IMG/VR virus record: IMGVR_UViG_3300003177_000017
Span: 1 to 64,000 of that record
Length of the DNA stretch: 64,000 nt
Reading direction: 5' to 3' (one strand)
DNA from: a virus
This document shows, in pieces, positions 1,272-60,560 of the stretch (within the stretch, counting starts at the first letter, position 1; each line of letters opens with the position of its first letter). The translations under genes and the position numbers were made by a program. Below the pieces are notes generated by a model. That model saw nothing but the letters and a program-made list of their open reading frames with translations, was not told the origin of the DNA and ran no database searches.

Positions 1272-1348
1272 ACTAAACGAGCATTCTAAGAGGTTTTAAT
1301 AACTAAGTCATGCAATGGCAACACTTTAAGATTAAAACCTCTTAGAAT
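1272..1348 (+). repeat. 77-bp hairpin repeat, copy A (before terL)
   Basis: This segment is identical over 77 bp to 32675-32751. It holds a perfect 18-bp inverted repeat, arms 1283-1300 (attctaagaggttttaat) and 1331-1348, around a 30-base loop in which AAGT/ACTT and TGC/GCA can pair further. Homology continues 5 bp further left with one mismatch and stops exactly at the right arm's end. It fills the gap between the 80-aa gene and terL, whose start has no evident Shine-Dalgarno site. Function unknown. Confidence 0.9.
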
Positions 1349-1362
1349 GACTTGATATTAAT

Positions 1363-3078
1363 GTGTTTAATCGTGAAATATCTGAATATTATCAAGGTTG
1401 GGAAGCTGCTGATCAATATGCCTTTGATGTAATTAATGGTGATGTGATAACAAACATTCATGTAAAAGAAACATGTGCAAGATACATTTATGACAGAACA
1501 AGAAAAGATATAGAATTTAGAGTAGGTTGTGTGGATCAAGCAATTAAATTTACTAACTTACTAAAACACGTCAAAGGTGCAATCTCAGGCAATCCAATGT
1601 TATTAATGAATTGGCAAATATTCATTGTTGCTAATTTATTAGGGTTTTATTTTACAAAAGGGTTACGAAAAGGAGAACGAAGGTTTACAAAAGGATTATG
1701 TTTAGTTGGCAGGGGTAACTCTAAGACTACCTTAGCGGCATGTTTAAGCACATTATTCATGCTAACATCCCCTAATGGGTCTCCTAGCGTGTTCAGTGCA
1801 GCAAGGACTAGAGCGCAAGCTGCGTTATCATTTACTGATACAAAGAAAATGATAAATGGCGCAGATTTTAGCATCAGATCTATGTTTGAAGTACATTCCC
1901 ATGATATATCAGGGTTAATAAATGACAGTTTATTTAAACCATTGGCATCAGAAGCACAATCAGTTGATGGATTAAGATCGTCATTAAATATTATTGATGA
2001 ATTAGCCTCTCATACATCAGGTGAAATGATGTCAACATTAATAACTGGAACATCAGCTACTAAAGATCCACTAACCTTCAGCATATCAACAGCAGGAATA
2101 CAATTAGATGGTGTATGTGTTCACGAAAGAAATTTAGTCCGTGACATTAATGCTGATCTTATCAAAGAGGATTCTTATTTTGGAATTGAATTTAGTATTG
2201 ATGATGATGACGAATGGGATGACGAACAATGTTGGATAAAATCAAATCCAGCACTAGGTCATGCGGTTAATATTAACTCATTAAGATCTGAACTTGCTAG
2301 GGCAAAACAATCACAAGTAAATAAAACCGCATTTAAAACTAAATATCTTAATGTATTCGTTAATACTAATAATAATCCTTATATTAGCACAGATGAATTA
2401 GAAATAAATTGTGCTAGGAATAATTTAAATATTAAAAGTTATAAAGGGCGAGAATGTTATGTAGGAATTGACGGAGCGCAACGATTTGATTTAGCATCAA
2501 CAGCTTTATTATTTCCTGAAGATGATGGGTCATTGACTGTATTTTTTAGACATTATGTTCCTAGAGGAGCTTTAAAAAAATTAACTTCTAATAAATTTGA
2601 AATGTATACACAGTGGGAAGCAGATGGATTACTAACAATAACTGAGGGGAACTCAATAGATTTTGAATTCATTAAAGATGATATTAGATTTGCTGCTAAG
2701 AACTTTAAATTACAAATGGTAGGGTATGATCCGTATGCTTTGGCACAAGTAGCTATAGAATTAGAGAATGAAAAAATAGAAATGGTGGAAGTTAGACAAG
2801 GCTATGCTCAATTATCTGAACCATCTAAGCTGTTACAATCATTAGTTTCTGATGGACTTCTAAATTATGACAAAAACGATAAAGTATTTTTGTGGTGTAT
2901 GGCGAACGCATGTATGTCAGAAGATCAAAACGCTAATATTAAAGTGCATAAAGATAAATTAAAGATCCATGACAAAATAGATTGCGTCATTGCACTAATA
3001 ACGGGATTAAATCCACAAATATTAAAACAACCGAAGAAACATAATAGTTATACAACTAGAGGAATGATTTCTATCTAA
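1363..3078 (+). CDS. terL: Terminase large subunit
   Basis: This is the packaging ATPase-nuclease of the HK97/phage terminase-1 family, 571 aa and near full length. Visible are the N-terminal WQ-containing adenine-binding region (about residue 83), a Walker A variant GRGNSKT near 117-123, a Walker B ending IIDE near 210, and a C-terminal nuclease domain opening with GIDGA near 368. The start is GTG; an in-frame TGA at 1348-1350 leaves no other canonical start. No good ribosome binding site precedes it because the hairpin repeat ends only 14 bases upstream, which is unusual for such a highly conserved gene. Confidence 0.95.
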   Translation: MFNREISEYYQGWEAADQYAFDVINGDVITNIHVKETCARYIYDRTRKDIEFRVGCVDQAIKFTNLLKHVKGAISGNPMLLMNWQIFIVANLLGFYFTKGLRKGERRFTKGLCLVGRGNSKTTLAACLSTLFMLTSPNGSPSVFSAARTRAQAALSFTDTKKMINGADFSIRSMFEVHSHDISGLINDSLFKPLASEAQSVDGLRSSLNIIDELASHTSGEMMSTLITGTSATKDPLTFSISTAGIQLDGVCVHERNLVRDINADLIKEDSYFGIEFSIDDDDEWDDEQCWIKSNPALGHAVNINSLRSELARAKQSQVNKTAFKTKYLNVFVNTNNNPYISTDELEINCARNNLNIKSYKGRECYVGIDGAQRFDLASTALLFPEDDGSLTVFFRHYVPRGALKKLTSNKFEMYTQWEADGLLTITEGNSIDFEFIKDDIRFAAKNFKLQMVGYDPYALAQVAIELENEKIEMVEVRQGYAQLSEPSKLLQSLVSDGLLNYDKNDKVFLWCMANACMSEDQNANIKVHKDKLKIHDKIDCVIALITGLNPQILKQPKKHNSYTTRGMISI

Positions 3079-4442: not shown

Positions 4443-5458
4443 ATAATATAAGTCAACGTTTTGAAGTTAAAGCAAATAATGACTCAACTGGTTCGTTCAC
4501 AGCGTATGGCAACGTGTTTAATATTATAGACGAAGCTGATGATATAACAATTAAAGGTGCGTTTTTGAAATCTATTCAAGAACATAAAGATAATAATACA
4601 ATGCCTAGATTGTTAGAACAACATGAACATAGATCAATGCCTATAGGAATAATCACGGATATTTTTGAGGACGAAAAAGGACTTAAATTTTCTGGTGAAT
4701 TAAACTTAGACACGCAATCTGGTAGAGAAGCTTATGCTTTATTAAAGCAGGGAGCAATAGATACATTTAGTATCGGGTATATAACAATTAAATCAGAACA
4801 ACAAAATCATAACGGTATTGATGTTAGGGCTTTATTAGAACTAGATCTCAAGGAGATAAGTTTAGTGACATTTGCATGTAATAAAGAAAGCAGAATAGAA
4901 AGTATTAAATCTGCATTAGTTAAACATGAAACTATAACAACAAAAATGGTACAGAAAGCATTACAAGAGTCTGGGCTATCAAATAGACAAGCTGAGCAAG
5001 CTATTAATCAAATCAAATCGGTAGATTTGGCAACAAAGGAGTCAGAAATGACCAAAGAAAAAAATACTAAATCGACTGAAACGATTGTAGATAAAGAACA
5101 AAAATCTGACAAAGTAGATGAAACGATTGTAGATAAAGAACAAAAATCTGACAAAGTAGATACCAAAGTAGATACCAAAGAACAAAAATCTAATTATTGG
5201 ATGAAAGATACACTTGAAGATCCAATCATATCAGTATCATGTTTACAAGATGTATTAATGTTTTTATCACCATCAGCACATGTTGCAATGATCGATATTG
5301 CAGAAAAGGATCGAGTTGCACAACTAGCAATTATTGATCCAGAAAAAAAATCTGATGAAACTTTAGATCAAAAACTAGATCAAGAACTAGAACAAGATAA
5401 AAAATCAAAAGAAATTAAATTAACTACTGAAGAAATTCAGAGTTGGTTCAAAGAATAG
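4439..5458 (+). CDS. Prohead maturation protease with C-terminal scaffold-like extension
   Basis: The first ~165 residues match the HK97 prohead protease (peptidase U35): H62 in LEQHEH, S111 in DTFSIGY and an acidic residue near 139 (LKEISLV) fit the catalytic set. It should cleave the capsid delta domain inside the prohead. The last ~170 residues are a Lys/Glu/Asp/Gln-rich extension absent from the minimal protease. They include two identical 14-residue repeats (ETIVDKEQKSDKVD) and a nested in-frame start at 5048. The extension resembles a fused scaffold. Confidence 0.92.
   Translation: MNNISQRFEVKANNDSTGSFTAYGNVFNIIDEADDITIKGAFLKSIQEHKDNNTMPRLLEQHEHRSMPIGIITDIFEDEKGLKFSGELNLDTQSGREAYALLKQGAIDTFSIGYITIKSEQQNHNGIDVRALLELDLKEISLVTFACNKESRIESIKSALVKHETITTKMVQKALQESGLSNRQAEQAINQIKSVDLATKESEMTKEKNTKSTETIVDKEQKSDKVDETIVDKEQKSDKVDTKVDTKEQKSNYWMKDTLEDPIISVSCLQDVLMFLSPSAHVAMIDIAEKDRVAQLAIIDPEKKSDETLDQKLDQELEQDKKSKEIKLTTEEIQSWFKE
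5048..5458 (+). CDS. Nested in-frame product, putative scaffolding protein
   Basis: Inside the protease gene an ATG at 5048, in the same frame (residue 204), is preceded by AAGGAG (5036-5041) at an ideal 6-base spacing. Translation from here would give a 136-aa highly charged, coiled-coil-like protein equal to the protease C-terminus. Lambda makes its scaffold Nu3 from an internal start in gene C in the same manner. The start signal is seen directly; its use and the scaffold role are inferred. Confidence 0.6.
   Translation: MTKEKNTKSTETIVDKEQKSDKVDETIVDKEQKSDKVDTKVDTKEQKSNYWMKDTLEDPIISVSCLQDVLMFLSPSAHVAMIDIAEKDRVAQLAIIDPEKKSDETLDQKLDQELEQDKKSKEIKLTTEEIQSWFKE
5078..5161 (+). repeat. Two 42-bp tandem repeats in the protease/scaffold gene
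   Basis: Units 5078-5119 and 5120-5161 appear identical and encode ETIVDKEQKSDKVD twice. A shorter degenerate piece (TKVDTKEQKS) follows. The repeat lies in the charged linker after the nested start codon and keeps the reading frame, so it lengthens the disordered part without disrupting it. Confidence 0.9.
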
Positions 5459-9270: not shown

Positions 9271-9600
9271 ATGTTAGACAAATCTAAATTATTTAGCATT
9301 AAACCAAAAATTAAAAAAGTTTTTATAAAATCACTCAATGAAGATATATTCGTTAAAGAATTCGTTGTTGCAGAACGTAATAAAGTAAGAGAAGCAAATA
9401 AAACTGAGGATTATCAATTAATTATGATGATCTTAGGAATTTGTGATAAAGATGGTGTTCCTATTTTTGATATTGATGATGTTGAACATTTATCTAATTT
9501 ACCACAAGTAATAGCAGATGAACTGATGTTAGCGGTGGTAGATCATAATGAACCGAAGGATTCTCTTAAAGAAGCAAAAAAGTCGCCAGAGATCCAATAA
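9271..9600 (+). CDS. Tail assembly chaperone, short form (gpG-like)
   Basis: The 109-aa zero-frame product of the tail assembly chaperone gene, corresponding to lambda gpG. It is a small acidic protein with the typical helix-rich body (VVAERNKVREANKTEDYQL, then DGVPIFDIDDVEHL). It probably binds tape measure protein during tail assembly. The last 18 bases before its stop contain the AAAAAAG slip site. AGGAGAACAAT precedes the ATG. Confidence 0.85.
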   Translation: MLDKSKLFSIKPKIKKVFIKSLNEDIFVKEFVVAERNKVREANKTEDYQLIMMILGICDKDGVPIFDIDDVEHLSNLPQVIADELMLAVVDHNEPKDSLKEAKKSPEIQ

Positions 9601-10034
9601 GAAAATTTCAACTTGAATTATGTATAGCATGGGGGCAACCTATAGAATATATAGAGTCATTACCAGATTCTATTTTATCAGAATTTATGGCATTGGATAG
9701 TATAATGCCATTTACTCCATCAGCCCCAGCATATAGAGAGGGATTATTGTGCGCATTGTTATATAATCAAAATGCTACCAAAAAATCTAATACAATCTCA
9801 GTAGAAGAATTATTTCCATATCTAAAATCTGGCACACCAGAATGGTTGGAAGATCCAAGAATACAAAAGACAAAGAAATTACTAAAATCAATAAATTGTC
9901 ACTCACCAGATGTATATAAATCTAGCTATAATGACATTTGCGAAAAAATAAAAGAAGAAATTGTTATCGAAAAAAATAGTTCAGACCCAGACCAATATGT
10001 CATTAATAAATTAAAAGAATTCTTAACAGAATAG
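9271..10034 (+). CDS. Tail assembly chaperone, frameshifted long form (gpGT-like)
   Basis: A -1 frameshift at 9576-9582 fuses the first 104 residues to 150 residues of the overlapping frame, giving about 254 aa. The second part (ARDPIRKFQLELCIAWG, then LSEFMALDS) is the well-known T-domain signature, yet its ORF has no start with a ribosome site until an internal ATG in mid-domain, so it can only be made as a fusion. In lambda the two forms in fixed ratio coat the tape measure protein. Confidence 0.85.
9576..9582 (+). other. Programmed -1 ribosomal frameshift site A AAA AAG
   Basis: In the zero frame the codons read GCA AAA AAG, giving the classic bacterial slippery heptamer A AAA AAG also used in E. 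coli dnaX. An AAGGA element 15 bases upstream (9556-9560) could act as a stimulatory Shine-Dalgarno pairing. No strong downstream stem was seen. The zero-frame stop (TAA 9598-9600) lies 15 bases beyond the site. Confidence 0.85.
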
Positions 10035-32623: not shown

Positions 32624-32664
32624 AAAAAGCCCCGATAGCTAATATGCTATCGGGGCTTTTTTTT
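32624..32664. terminator. Bidirectional rho-independent terminator between converging blocks
   Basis: A perfect 16-bp stem (arms 32624-32639 and 32646-32661, core GCCCCGATAGC) with a 6-base loop and eight T on the + side. On the - strand the stem ends in five T. It lies three bases after the endolysin stop and faces the end of the leftward block, so it should insulate both. Confidence 0.93.
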
Positions 32665-32674
32665 CAATTAAGGT

Positions 32675-32751
32675 ACTAAACGAGCATTCTAAGAGGTTTT
32701 AATAACTAAGTCATGCAATGGCAACACTTTAAGATTAAAACCTCTTAGAAT
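32675..32751. repeat. 77-bp hairpin repeat, copy B (block junction)
   Basis: Identical to 1272-1348, in the same orientation, with 18-bp arms at 32686-32703 and 32734-32751. It follows the bidirectional terminator. Its right arm supplies the last codons (SKRF) and the stop codon of the leftward dNMP kinase reading frame, so the repeat defines that protein's C-terminus. The left flank shares AAGG and then one mismatch with copy A; the right flanks are unrelated. Confidence 0.9.
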
Positions 32752-33273
32752 TCGTGTTTATCCAATTGTTAATAATTTTTTCTACATTATAAAATAATTT
32801 TTTCAAGGTAGAGTTATTATATAAATGCACAATTTCACAATCTGCTTCATAGAAATAATTCCTTGAATCATTATCAAAAGAACAATCATCTCTATATATT
32901 TGAATTACTAATACATGATCTGCCCCAATCTCATTAATAACTAATTGTAATTCTTCTTTAAATCCTCCATCTGATATAATATTGATCCCTTTTTCTAAAG
33001 AATTACATAACATTTTACCAAAATAATTTTTACCATACACAGGTTTAATTAATTTTTCTGAGGTGGTGATCTACCAAATAATTCCTCTGTACATACTTCT
33101 TTAAGCTCTCTTGTATATAATTCATTCCATCTTTCATCAGATATTTGAGCTACAGCTTTTGCTATATCAAATAATGCAGTTTTAAATTCCTTATGATGAT
33201 AATTTGAAAAATGCTCTGCAATTGCATCTTTACCTGAATTTGGCGGAGCATTAAGTACAACAGCAAATTTCAT
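32735..33273 (-). pseudogene. Deoxynucleoside monophosphate kinase, frame-disrupted
   Basis: Two reading frames together make one dNMP kinase. The first (33273-33049) has the P-loop NAPPNSGKDAIAEHF and ends FGRSPPQKN. The second carries SEKLIKPVYGKNYFGK, then the NIISDGGFKEELQL motif, and ends at 32735. The frames differ by -1, and relative to the family a few residues between SP and SEK seem missing, which fits a short out-of-frame deletion near 33065. A slip at GAAAAAT could in principle restore a fusion. The intact enzyme would phosphorylate dNMPs for phage DNA synthesis. Confidence 0.75.
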
Positions 33274-47852: not shown

Positions 47853-48893
47853 TTAATCACTTAGGTCAATGCTAGAAAACACGTCTGTATCCGGAACAGA
47901 TTGATTAGCAAAAGGATCTTCTTCAATGCTTAGTTGTGATTCTGGTTCTGTATTAGTAATATTTGCAAACACGTCTGTATCTAATTCTGGTTCTGTATTA
48001 GTAATATTTGCAAGCACGTCTGTATCTGTTTGTGGTTCTGATTGTGGTTCTGATTGTTTTTCTTTCTCAAAAGGATTAGCACCGGCTTTAGCAGCAACTT
48101 CAGGATTGAATTCTTCATCCATGATTTTAGCGACATATCGACCGCCCAACACCTTGATCATTTCTGCCTTTAATTCATCATACGATTTGTAATTTGATTC
48201 TGATTCAAATTCTGCTAAATCATACATAGAATTATATAATTTCTCTTGCACTTCTTGTCTACCACCAGCTAACGGTGATACTTGTTCAAATTCAGAGCTA
48301 TCATAACTAAGGCTAAAATCACCATTTTCTGATCTTATTCTAAAATTTGCCCCTTGATCCCAATCAAAAAATTCTAATGGTTTCTGATCTTCAAATTTAG
48401 GAAACCATGCTGCTTCTAATTTTTTAAGAATTGCTGGACCAAATTGATATAACATCACTTTACCATTATTTTCTGGGTTTGCTTTATCATCTAATACTAC
48501 GATATTAGTGATGTATTTTTTCTGAACTTTACGTTTACGTGCCATTGCAGCTTCAGCACCATTTTTACGTTCAGCATCAGGAATTTTAGCCCAATGTGCT
48601 TTATTTAATTCTGATACTGGATCAGGCTTATTAATACTAGATAAATTTCTGTTCCAGTAACTATTACTGCCGTTTTTGAAACTAAATTCAGTCCAAGCAA
48701 CCCACGGTACTGTAGGTTGTCCATCTGCATCATATCGTGGTAAGAAACGGATCAATGATGTACCTATACCGCTATCAGTGCTATATCTATGTTTCCATTG
48801 TCTAGGATCACGCGTAGAACTACCATCATCTTGAATTTTTGTTTTCATTGCAGCGTTGTTTACTTTGTTTTTTTTAATATCAGCGAATGACAT
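47853..48893 (-). CDS. Single-stranded DNA-binding protein (T4 gp32-like)
   Basis: A 346-aa gp32-type SSB. The N-terminal basic region (FADIKKNKVNNAAMKTKI) precedes an OB-fold core with LIRFLPRYDADGQPTVPWV, then KKYITNIVVLDDKANPENNG and VMLYQFGPAILKKL, as in T4 gp32. No Cys/His zinc cluster of the T4 type is visible. The C-terminal ~80 residues are acidic, include two 15-residue repeats (TDVxANITNTEPE) and should be the protein interaction tail. It is the third gene after a strong promoter. Confidence 0.88.
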   Translation of the reverse strand: MSFADIKKNKVNNAAMKTKIQDDGSSTRDPRQWKHRYSTDSGIGTSLIRFLPRYDADGQPTVPWVAWTEFSFKNGSNSYWNRNLSSINKPDPVSELNKAHWAKIPDAERKNGAEAAMARKRKVQKKYITNIVVLDDKANPENNGKVMLYQFGPAILKKLEAAWFPKFEDQKPLEFFDWDQGANFRIRSENGDFSLSYDSSEFEQVSPLAGGRQEVQEKLYNSMYDLAEFESESNYKSYDELKAEMIKVLGGRYVAKIMDEEFNPEVAAKAGANPFEKEKQSEPQSEPQTDTDVLANITNTEPELDTDVFANITNTEPESQLSIEEDPFANQSVPDTDVFSSIDLSD

Positions 48894-55767: not shown

Positions 55768-56223
55768 TTATTCATCATAAATCCCTAATGCCTTAGCTAC
55801 TGCAATAATATCTTCTTTGTTTGTCCAGCATAACCCGCGTTTAATTAGTACTCTTTCATACTTATAATCAGTAAAAGTATCCTGGGTATACCCATGGCGC
55901 GCGCTACTAGTTAAGCTAAAGTATTGTTGATTATATTCTAACTTTTCCACTGGTGGATTAGCTTTTACTTTTACACCAAATACTGTGATTTCTGTTTTAG
56001 CTATTCTGTAACTGTACCCTGTTAAATTCACCCAATTGCTATAAATAGGGCCCTTTCTTTCCCAATTGCTAGGGTATCCATTTATTTTATATTCTAATTC
56101 AGCACCGTTGATCCAAGCGCGCAGTATTTTTCTATTGTCTATAATTTCTTTCAAATCTAAAATATTTAATTTGTTATCATCTAAGGATAAGTATATTTTT
56201 GCTTGCTCTTTTGTGATTTTCAT
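55768..56223 (-). CDS. Hypothetical accessory protein
   Basis: A 151-aa protein with an opening helix pair (KITKEQAKIYLSLDDNKLN, then ILDLKEIIDNRK), a central aromatic beta part (NWERKGPIYSNWVNLTGYSY) and the end KRGLCWTNKEDIIAVAKAL. Proteins of this make-up are common phage accessory products of unknown function. Stop/start overlap with the next gene. Confidence 0.6.
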   Translation of the reverse strand: MKITKEQAKIYLSLDDNKLNILDLKEIIDNRKILRAWINGAELEYKINGYPSNWERKGPIYSNWVNLTGYSYRIAKTEITVFGVKVKANPPVEKLEYNQQYFSLTSSARHGYTQDTFTDYKYERVLIKRGLCWTNKEDIIAVAKALGIYDE

Positions 56224-56723
56224 TAGCTCACCCCAAATATTAATCTAATCTCTTTCTGCATGTTCTCTAACACCCACGCAATAGCTTCTTCACTTGTAGT
56301 GTACAAAGCCAATTCAGTATGTTGTGTTAGCACATACCATTCACAATCAAATACCTTTCTATTATACTTATAAGCAAAGTAGTATTTCCTTTGGCGGTTG
56401 TTAGACCAATCAACTTCTTCTTGTTCAAGTTCCCTAAGCTTGTCAATAACAGCTTGTTTAGCAACCATCTTATTATTAACTAATTCAGCCTCCTCTTTTG
56501 TTTTAAATACATTGCCTCTAGCGAATCTACGTTTATCAATAGTGTGATTAGCCCAAGTATCTAAAATATACACCCCCATACTATCCATGAAATAATATTT
56601 ACCGCCAAACTCAGGTTTCCATCTACCTTTCTTAATTGGTTTAGTTTTACTAATAGGTGCATAACCAGCTGTTAATAGGTCTGATTCACTTATTTGTACA
56701 TTATTTATTTTTACTGTTTTCAT
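56223..56723 (-). CDS. Accessory protein, tandem paralogue A
   Basis: A 166-aa protein, start ATG 56723 chosen by alignment with its paralogue at 57123-57623, which has the same length. Both share KTxxINxVQISExDLLxAGY, the block KTKPIKKGRWKP, then ARGNVFKTxxEAELVNNKMV and a C-terminal TTSEEAIAWVLENMQ. Similar proteins with RGNVFKT-EEA occur in many phages; function unknown. DNA identity is high at both ends and lower in the middle. Confidence 0.7.
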   Translation of the reverse strand: MKTVKINNVQISESDLLTAGYAPISKTKPIKKGRWKPEFGGKYYFMDSMGVYILDTWANHTIDKRRFARGNVFKTKEEAELVNNKMVAKQAVIDKLRELEQEEVDWSNNRQRKYYFAYKYNRKVFDCEWYVLTQHTELALYTTSEEAIAWVLENMQKEIRLIFGVS

Positions 56724-56802
56724 TAGTTTATTCTCCAATAAGTCAATTTTATTGCCCATAACTCTGTACCAGTTATGGGTTTCATATCTAGCATTTTCAT
56801 TA

Positions 56803-57123
56803 TTATTCCTCTAGTTCTACTTTACGTAGTATATAACCGTTTGGTTCACAAAAACCAGTTTCCCAATCTTCTGTCATATTAATATAGTCCAATTCATATA
56901 CTCCATCATCAACTTGTTGTAAATTATCTATTAATGATAACAAGTCAATTTCCTCGCAGATTTCATCATTGAGCAAGTCATGTCCTTTTGACTTTCTTTT
57001 TAGTGTAGTTAGTACTTTTGCATAAAAGTATTCATTGCCTCTTTTGAATGTTTTTGTTTTGAGTCTTACTATTGTTCTGTTATTATCGTGTGGTGTTTCT
57101 ACTCCCAAGGTTAGTGGCTTCAT
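56803..57123 (-). CDS. Hypothetical protein between the two paralogues
   Basis: A 106-aa protein with an N-terminal strand region (LGVETPHDNNRTIVRLKTK), a basic middle and an acidic end (YELDYINMTEDWETGFCEP). Its start overlaps the stop of paralogue B. Not recognised. It was probably carried along in or inserted into the tandem duplication. Confidence 0.55.
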   Translation of the reverse strand: MKPLTLGVETPHDNNRTIVRLKTKTFKRGNEYFYAKVLTTLKRKSKGHDLLNDEICEEIDLLSLIDNLQQVDDGVYELDYINMTEDWETGFCEPNGYILRKVELEE

Positions 57124-57623
57124 TAGCTCACCCCAAATATCAGTTTAAGTTCGGCTTGCATGTTCTCTAACACCCACGCAATAGCTTCTTCACTTGTAGT
57201 GTACAAAATTGATTCAGGGTATTGTGTTAGCACATACCAATCAATTTTAAATTTGTGAGTATGATGATCATAACTAAAGAAATATTTCCTTTGCGTGCTA
57301 TTAGACCAATCAATTTCCTTTCGCTCAAGTTCCCTAAGCTTGTCAATAACAGCTTGTTTAGCAACCATCTTATTATTAACTAATTCAGCTTCTGATTCTG
57401 TTTTAAAGACATTACCTCTAGCAAACCGGTGAATATCGATAGGGTGTGCATCCCATATATCTTGATTTAGTATACCACTTGCACTAATGCGCCAATAAAT
57501 ATCACCAAACCCAGGTTTCCATCTACCTTTCTTAATTGGTTTAGTTTTACTAATAGGAGCATAACCAGCTGCTAGTAAATCTTCTTCACTTATTTGTACA
57601 TCGTTAATTGTGATTGTTTTCAT
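57123..57623 (-). CDS. Accessory protein, tandem paralogue B
   Basis: A 166-aa paralogue of 56223-56723. I choose ATG 57623 over an upstream in-frame start because the shared leader (AAAGAGAAATATATT) lies directly before it and the alignment with paralogue A begins here. The central ~50 residues differ most, which suggests divergence or selection on that part. Confidence 0.7.
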   Translation of the reverse strand: MKTITINDVQISEEDLLAAGYAPISKTKPIKKGRWKPGFGDIYWRISASGILNQDIWDAHPIDIHRFARGNVFKTESEAELVNNKMVAKQAVIDKLRELERKEIDWSNSTQRKYFFSYDHHTHKFKIDWYVLTQYPESILYTTSEEAIAWVLENMQAELKLIFGVS

Positions 57624-57668
57624 AATATATTTCTCTTTTAATTTATGTTGTTTATCAATTTCTATACT
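57624..57668 (-). promoter_or_regulatory. Shared leader, copy C
   Basis: On the - strand it reads GTATAGAAATTGATAAACA, then AACATAAATTAAAAGAG and the run ATATATT before ATG. The block AAATTGATAAACAACA followed by a short spacer and RAAGAG recurs at 58089-58136 and 58525-58568. It probably combines a promoter or mRNA leader with a ribosome site (AGAG). Confidence 0.6.
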
Positions 57669-60426: not shown

Positions 60427-60560
60427 TGCAAGTTATCTTCACCATCTAATTCAGATTGTAAATCGTCATAATCAGGTTCTTCACCATCTAATTCAGATTG
60501 TAAATCGTCATAATCAGGTTCTTCATCATAAAACTTTTTATAAAATTCAAGATCTTTCAT
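60423..60560 (-). CDS. 45-aa acidic repeat protein
   Basis: An ORF encoding MKDLEFYKKFYDEEPDY and two 14-residue acidic repeats (EEPDYDDLQSELDG). The repeat is a perfect or near-perfect 42-bp tandem on the DNA. The stop overlaps the MTase remnant. Function unknown; a DNA-mimic role is conceivable but unsupported at this length. Confidence 0.5.
   Translation of the reverse strand: MKDLEFYKKFYDEEPDYDDLQSELDGEEPDYDDLQSELDGEDNLQ

Follow-up and report, generated by a model that had tools for sequence, protein, structure and literature searches.

A family of folded intergenic elements dispersed at gene boundaries in unrelated viruses

What a short hairpin-bearing repeat is doing directly in front of the terL gene of a marine phage, and again at an unrelated locus of the same genome, is the question raised by this stretch of DNA. 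The window analysed here is 64,000 nucleotides long and comprises positions 1–64000 of a linear IMG/VR record of 71,164 bp. A repeat search of the window aligned 1266–1348 with 32669–32751 at 82 of 83 positions, with one mismatch. The exact stretch is 77 nt and is the longest exact repeat of the window (16–18 nt in 10 shuffles), which bears out the first-pass annotation of a 77-bp direct repeat identical base for base. That annotation had also described an 18-bp perfect stem with a 30-base loop that can pair further (AAGT/ACTT), and the same arms and loop were found in both copies. The right edge of the homology is exact at ...CTTAGAAT, as had been claimed, and on the left the homology extends to TCAA with a 2-nt indel. 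The two copies fold as RNA with z = −8.2 and −8.1, and as single-stranded DNA with z = −8.1. A covariance model search of the 71,164-bp record found no third copy.

1260–1352, + strand: element copy A, span of covariance model R1 (94.8 bits), core about 1262–1348; repeat with copy B
1283–1300/1331–1348, + strand: hairpin arms of copy A, 18 bp perfect
1301–1330, + strand: loop of copy A, 30 nt, with the ACTAAGYCATGCAATGGC motif
32665–32755, + strand: element copy B, R1 span (85.4 bits), shared core 32669–32751; also in contig L006
32686–32703/32734–32751, + strand: hairpin arms of copy B, 18 bp perfect

The loop motif ACTAAGYCATGCAATGGC is conserved in the close relatives L093/L094 only. A leader peptide in the loop (MQWQHFKIKTS) was considered and rejected, as the substitutions do not look coding.

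An obvious objection, anticipated at the first reading, is that one copy could be an assembly artefact. Copy B and both of its flanks occur at 100% identity over 1200 bp in an independent contig, IMGVR_UViG_3300003873_000133 (L006), and thus copy B is not the artefact of one assembly. For copy A the objection keeps its force to the extent that this copy is present in a single assembly, but its flanks, terS and terL, are syntenic with relatives. The surroundings of copy B are as follows.

32624–32661, + strand: intrinsic terminator, apparently bidirectional, after the endolysin and directly left of copy B
32735–33273, − strand: dNMP kinase, phrog_139 on both halves, stop inside copy B

Copy B does supply the last codons and stop of the dNMP kinase (...S-K-R-F-stop), as had been noted from the letters, and the kinase ORF itself is frameshifted. 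The frameshift, near 33050, splits the gene into 33049–33273 and 32735–33040; because it is identical in the independent contig, the kinase may be a true pseudogene or be read by a programmed shift.

Pattern scans and comparison with terL relatives showed the repeat to be one member of a family present in other viral records. The family, which had no name before, consists of folded elements in several unrelated viruses, with the layout box1 (ATTCTAAG), 15 nt, box2 (TTCTAAG), 50 nt, box3 (CTTAGAAT). A member is about 87 nt long and aligns almost without gaps between lineages that have little else in common. The boxes of the window copies are:

1264–1269, + strand: box1 of copy A, TCTAAG (alignments A4/A5 and sequence)
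1284–1290, + strand: box2 of copy A, TTCTAAG, base of the hairpin, in the left arm 1283–1300
1341–1348, + strand: box3 of copy A, CTTAGAAT, end of the right arm (1331–1348) and right homology edge
32687–32693, + strand: box2 of copy B
32744–32751, + strand: box3 of copy B, right edge; its minus-strand reading gives the last kinase codons

Other intact copies lie in viral records 3300022695/97, two 3300023313 contigs, 3300025012/24999, 3300002231 and 3300025131. The members L093/L094, L105 (=L128), L263, L142=L165, L195 and L227 were found by pattern scans or as terL relatives; L142 and L165 come from one phage, with records of 99 kb and 62 kb. R1, built from all of these members except L263, scores members at 58–95 bits. 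The closest relatives (L093/L007 and L094/L008, terL 90–91% identical to that of the window) carry two diverged copies before terL, about 76% identical to the window copies and 97–99% to each other. Between these two copies are a 41-bp tandem repeat and a tRNA-like gene, and an Acb2-like anti-CBASS gene precedes the pair. L105, whose terL is 70% identical, also has two copies before terL, and it was their near-gapless alignment with the window copies that revealed the box1/box2/box3 architecture. The last refined pattern scan yielded L263 and two further copies, L264 and L265, which score 17 and 35 bits with R1 (built without them) and are graded only as probable because coding look-alikes reach 22–39 bits with R2, the model that includes them. 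All family searches required the boxes, so their conservation is partly built in. The exhaustive scan covered viral contigs and host genomes were sampled; few lineages are known.

Blast against INPHARED phages and PLSDB plasmids gave no match covering the element, and none was found in 398 Pseudomonadota genomes by model and pattern, the model search there being a weak one that scored 10 candidates per genome. Several candidates were set aside. The pattern TCTAAG-N15-TCTAAG-N50-CTTAGAAT returned at least 119 stretches, almost all of them a coding motif (SKVSKMSSKELKRDLLLFAK..LFLEL); a second coding family in a later pattern scan was likewise a look-alike, and matches in Rhodobacter L095 and phage L005 were due to chance. 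Beyond the close group, the nearest terL relatives are Vibrio phages of about 100 kb with 50–51% identity. In henriette and 2.058.O, terL is preceded by a hairpin (TTTCAATTARCGTCCATRCATGG; degenerate in V6Aob) that resembles the element by eye but received no R1 score. V6Aob, a Vibrio phage, has a set of 106-nt intergenic hairpin repeats of its own before small early genes (L102:8773–8878, 9346–9451, 9771–9876), and henriette also has intergenic repeats of 91–122 nt. Additionally, the L142 phage carries an apparent half copy, of the box1-box2 side only (L248:12854–12901), and a different repeated hairpin leader (GGGCATTNAAAGCCCTT...) near small genes (L248:573–636 and 1016–1079).

Comparison with the relatives shows what has changed around copy A.

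1026–1268, + strand: probable small terminase gene (80 aa), with its end in box1 of copy A
1363–3078, + strand: terL (PHROG phrog_9, E=2e-136), GTG start

The terS candidate has no family match and was assigned by position and synteny with L093/L008; its stop codon, TAA at 1266–1268, falls within box1. The terL gene of the window has no visible Shine-Dalgarno sequence (1349–1370) and is missing the first 11 codons of its relatives, whereas L093 and L008 retain both AAAGGAGAGATATG and the 11 extra codons. The earlier remark that copy A displaces the ribosome site of terL was therefore right. Relative to L093, the window is without the Acb2-like gene, the tRNA region and the beginning of terL, including the ribosome site. 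On the left, the junction between copy A and L093 coincides with an ATCAA present in both, which is what a deletion through short homology should produce; the Shine-Dalgarno sequence and codons were likely lost by deletion. Two features of the relatives may be recorded here: L008:982–1245 encodes an Acb2/Tad1-hairpin domain protein (PF24729) in the variable terS–terL gap, and L093:1106–1178 is a tRNA-like gene with an odd anticodon loop, located between two elements and preceded by the 41-bp tandem repeat, which contains TATAAT.

Members of the family lie at gene ends in diverse phages, most of them marine. A same-strand gene stops inside the element or within about 25 nt of its start in copy A, L093_1, L105_1, L263 and L264: the stop codon is inside box1 in copy A, 5–7 nt before box1 in L093_1, L263 and L264, and 23 nt before it in L105_1. 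L093_2 is at the 3' end of the tRNA-like gene, copy B and L227 lie at convergent late/early junctions, and the L195 element is upstream of a terS–terL pair. L165 is the exception, being away from same-strand gene ends. Given this spread over gene ends, a tRNA and convergent junctions, the front of terL is one site among several. The two copies had also been said to bracket the structural module; they do so in the window phage, but this is not general, since both copies precede terL in L093 and L105.

The element has dispersed recently within genomes. Copies A and B, 82/83 alike, lie at unrelated loci; L105_2 and L263 are 88% identical over 111 nt at different loci, with homology that begins at box1 and ends just past a fourth box. 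L263 is an early-region contig from the same metagenome as L105 and likely belongs to the L105 phage. Similarly, the L093 copies are 99% alike, against 76% between the window and L093. Some members occur in phages without other detectable similarity to the window, and together with the recurrence of nearly the same copy at unrelated loci, in both the window and the L105 group, this indicates dispersal. The first-pass suggestion of a minute mobile hairpin thus gains support from the family in unrelated phages, the near-identical copies and their sharp edges.

With a rough probability of 0.5, we read this as a dispersed, structured intergenic element that acts at gene boundaries as a short unit of exchange and is PeSL- or MITE-like in behaviour. 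The element codes for nothing and would be non-autonomous. The unit would be copied from gene boundary to gene boundary and between unrelated phages, with its edges at or near the outer boxes. Copying could be performed by a recombinase or transposase acting in trans, or by phage homologous recombination, as proposed for the T4 PeSL cassettes. Once in place, copies could serve as portable seams, such that the intervening genes would be inserted or deleted when copies recombine or when their edges are joined illegitimately. L093 has an Acb2-like gene plus element and a tRNA-like gene plus element where the window has one element. The element probably helps to reshuffle viral gene modules; the route of copying, and shuffling as a selected role rather than a by-product, are what we infer. 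No empty site representing the state before or after insertion was found, and no recombinase could be linked to the element. Joining of phage modules at gene boundaries has so far mostly been deduced from outcomes, and a findable element with fixed boxes at the seams of unrelated phages makes guided shuffling by DNA structures testable.

The PeSL are reportedly promoter-terminator stem-loop cassettes of T4-like phages, for which Arbiol, Comeau and Krisch are said to have proposed modular shuffling. The likeness is that of dispersed intergenic stem-loop units between phage genes. A PeSL, however, holds an early promoter and an intrinsic terminator, while the element has no T-run and only some copies have a TATAAT-like sequence beside them. 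Neither copy A nor L093 880–1330 gave a terminator call, and the terminator at copy B is separate; TATAAT-like repeats are seen by eye between the L093 copies, where a sigma-70 scan was not above chance. Similar to MITE and REP palindromes, the element is small, non-coding, intergenic and present in several copies with inverted ends, box1 and box3 being 97% paired (18 bp perfect in L195). Unlike these, it has no transposase seen adjoining it, no target duplication evident by eye and a low copy number, and has so far come from viral genomes only.

The box1-box2-hairpin-box3 strand folds as RNA or as single-stranded DNA, with compensatory changes keeping the fold. Box2 pairs with box3, and the A/T stem adjoining them covaries (0/500 shuffles). 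Across the nine sequences of alignment A4, the 18-pair helix has 85% of its cells paired and covariation is 0.239, compared with 0.125±0.025 in shuffled alignments (0/500); a 12-sequence alignment gave a similar result. In a sliding control, no shift of the partner gave a higher value for any measure; values fell or, at best, stayed equal. The signal is located in the A/T stem and the three pairs adjoining the boxes, the boxes themselves being invariant and thus providing no covariation information. Box3 has a second possible partner in box1, which is complementary to it as well, so that the two left boxes compete for pairing. There are 12 G-T cells and 3 A-C cells, an excess which suggests that the + strand is the folding strand.

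These compensatory changes, and a family in unrelated phages, strengthen the structured RNA role listed among the first proposals. The element could be a cis-acting intergenic RNA, namely an RNase III site, a 3'-end protector or an attenuator switching box1/box2 against box3, whose hairpin shapes the 3' end of an mRNA or tRNA and whose copies have spread through usefulness. The G-T excess on one strand and the two alternative partners of box3 speak for it, and an RNA role also fits elements located at the 3' ends of genes and of a tRNA and oriented along transcription. But the strand that folds is in some cases not the one transcribed, given that copy B lies behind a strong + strand terminator and that L165 has the reverse orientation; it is unusual for RNA hairpins to combine a diverged loop with a constant box2-box3 spacing, here 50 nt; and no Rfam model reached its gathering score in the window, with chance matches only near copy A. 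A small phage ribozyme or CRISPR repeat was rejected for want of an Rfam match. An RNA role as the full explanation is possible but tentative, and the dispersed exchange unit may have one in addition.

The folded strand could instead be an attC-like single-stranded site for another tyrosine recombinase, with gene plus element forming a cassette. As in attC (PMC9892861), there is a folded hairpin with conserved outer inverted boxes, a variable (here covarying) interior, and the order gene, then site: a gene or tRNA precedes the element in the same orientation, with the stop codon of one in box1. An attC site has two pairs of boxes (1L-2L, 2R-1R); four nested boxes occur in L263 and L105_2 only. 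Moreover, attC sites are known in virulent marine phages (PMC9892861), and L227 and G004 carry a tyrosine recombinase. The R boxes of attC, however, read RYYYAAC ... GTTRRRY (PMC3053210, PMC9892861), whereas nearly all aligned members have TTCTAAG/CTTAGAA and never AAC/GTT; the left boxes are 15 nt apart, most members have one right box and lack box4, and the length is fixed. PF00589 is absent from the window record, in which no integrase was found, and from L093 and L105, both incomplete. We consider such a site unlikely. A phage cassette system independent of IntI, in which gene-plus-hairpin units with AAG/CTT boxes are recombined by a putative tyrosine recombinase, is likewise doubtful; if true, virulent marine phages would swap accessory genes (anti-defence, tRNAs) next to terL in an integron-like manner.

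One member touches an integrase gene directly. The first 69 nt of the L227 element match the coding strand of its own tyrosine integrase at 51/69 positions without gaps (at most 36 in shuffles), in the region of the box-I arginine (MRFKGSHVHFKPFYLVALYTGMR; L249:13381–13449, minus strand, and L227:1535–1603). This may be a copied piece of the gene, antisense regulation or a clue to origin. The idea that all elements derive from integrase genes was rejected, as L227 alone matches its own integrase and the other translations contain no integrase domain.

A packaging (pac/cos) site recognised by the terminase, one of the first proposals, would suit copy A, L093, L105 and L195, all of which adjoin terminase genes. 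Other members do not: in the circularised record of L227, a 38 kb phage, about 13 kb separate the element from terL, L263 is in an early region, L165 is near methyltransferase genes and copy B is 31 kb from terL. Additionally, by R1 the element is absent from three Vibrio phages whose terL is 50% identical. As packaging is no common denominator of these placements and the element is not specific to the terminase region, this role is very unlikely. An ordinary terminator or a chance hairpin, suggested by the position at gene ends, is the least probable reading of all, given that copy A has no T-run and no terminator call, that the terminator at copy B is a separate hairpin, and that conserved boxes at fixed spacing across unrelated phages refute chance.

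Finally, the window contains other repeats. Perfect or near-perfect tandem duplications of 42–45 nt, in whole codons, are present at 5077–5160, 60436–60519 and 47939–48028, and are probably repeats within protein-coding genes. A paralogous pair, 56219–56735 and 57119–57635, lies in the early region at a spacing of 900 bp with 83–84% DNA identity.
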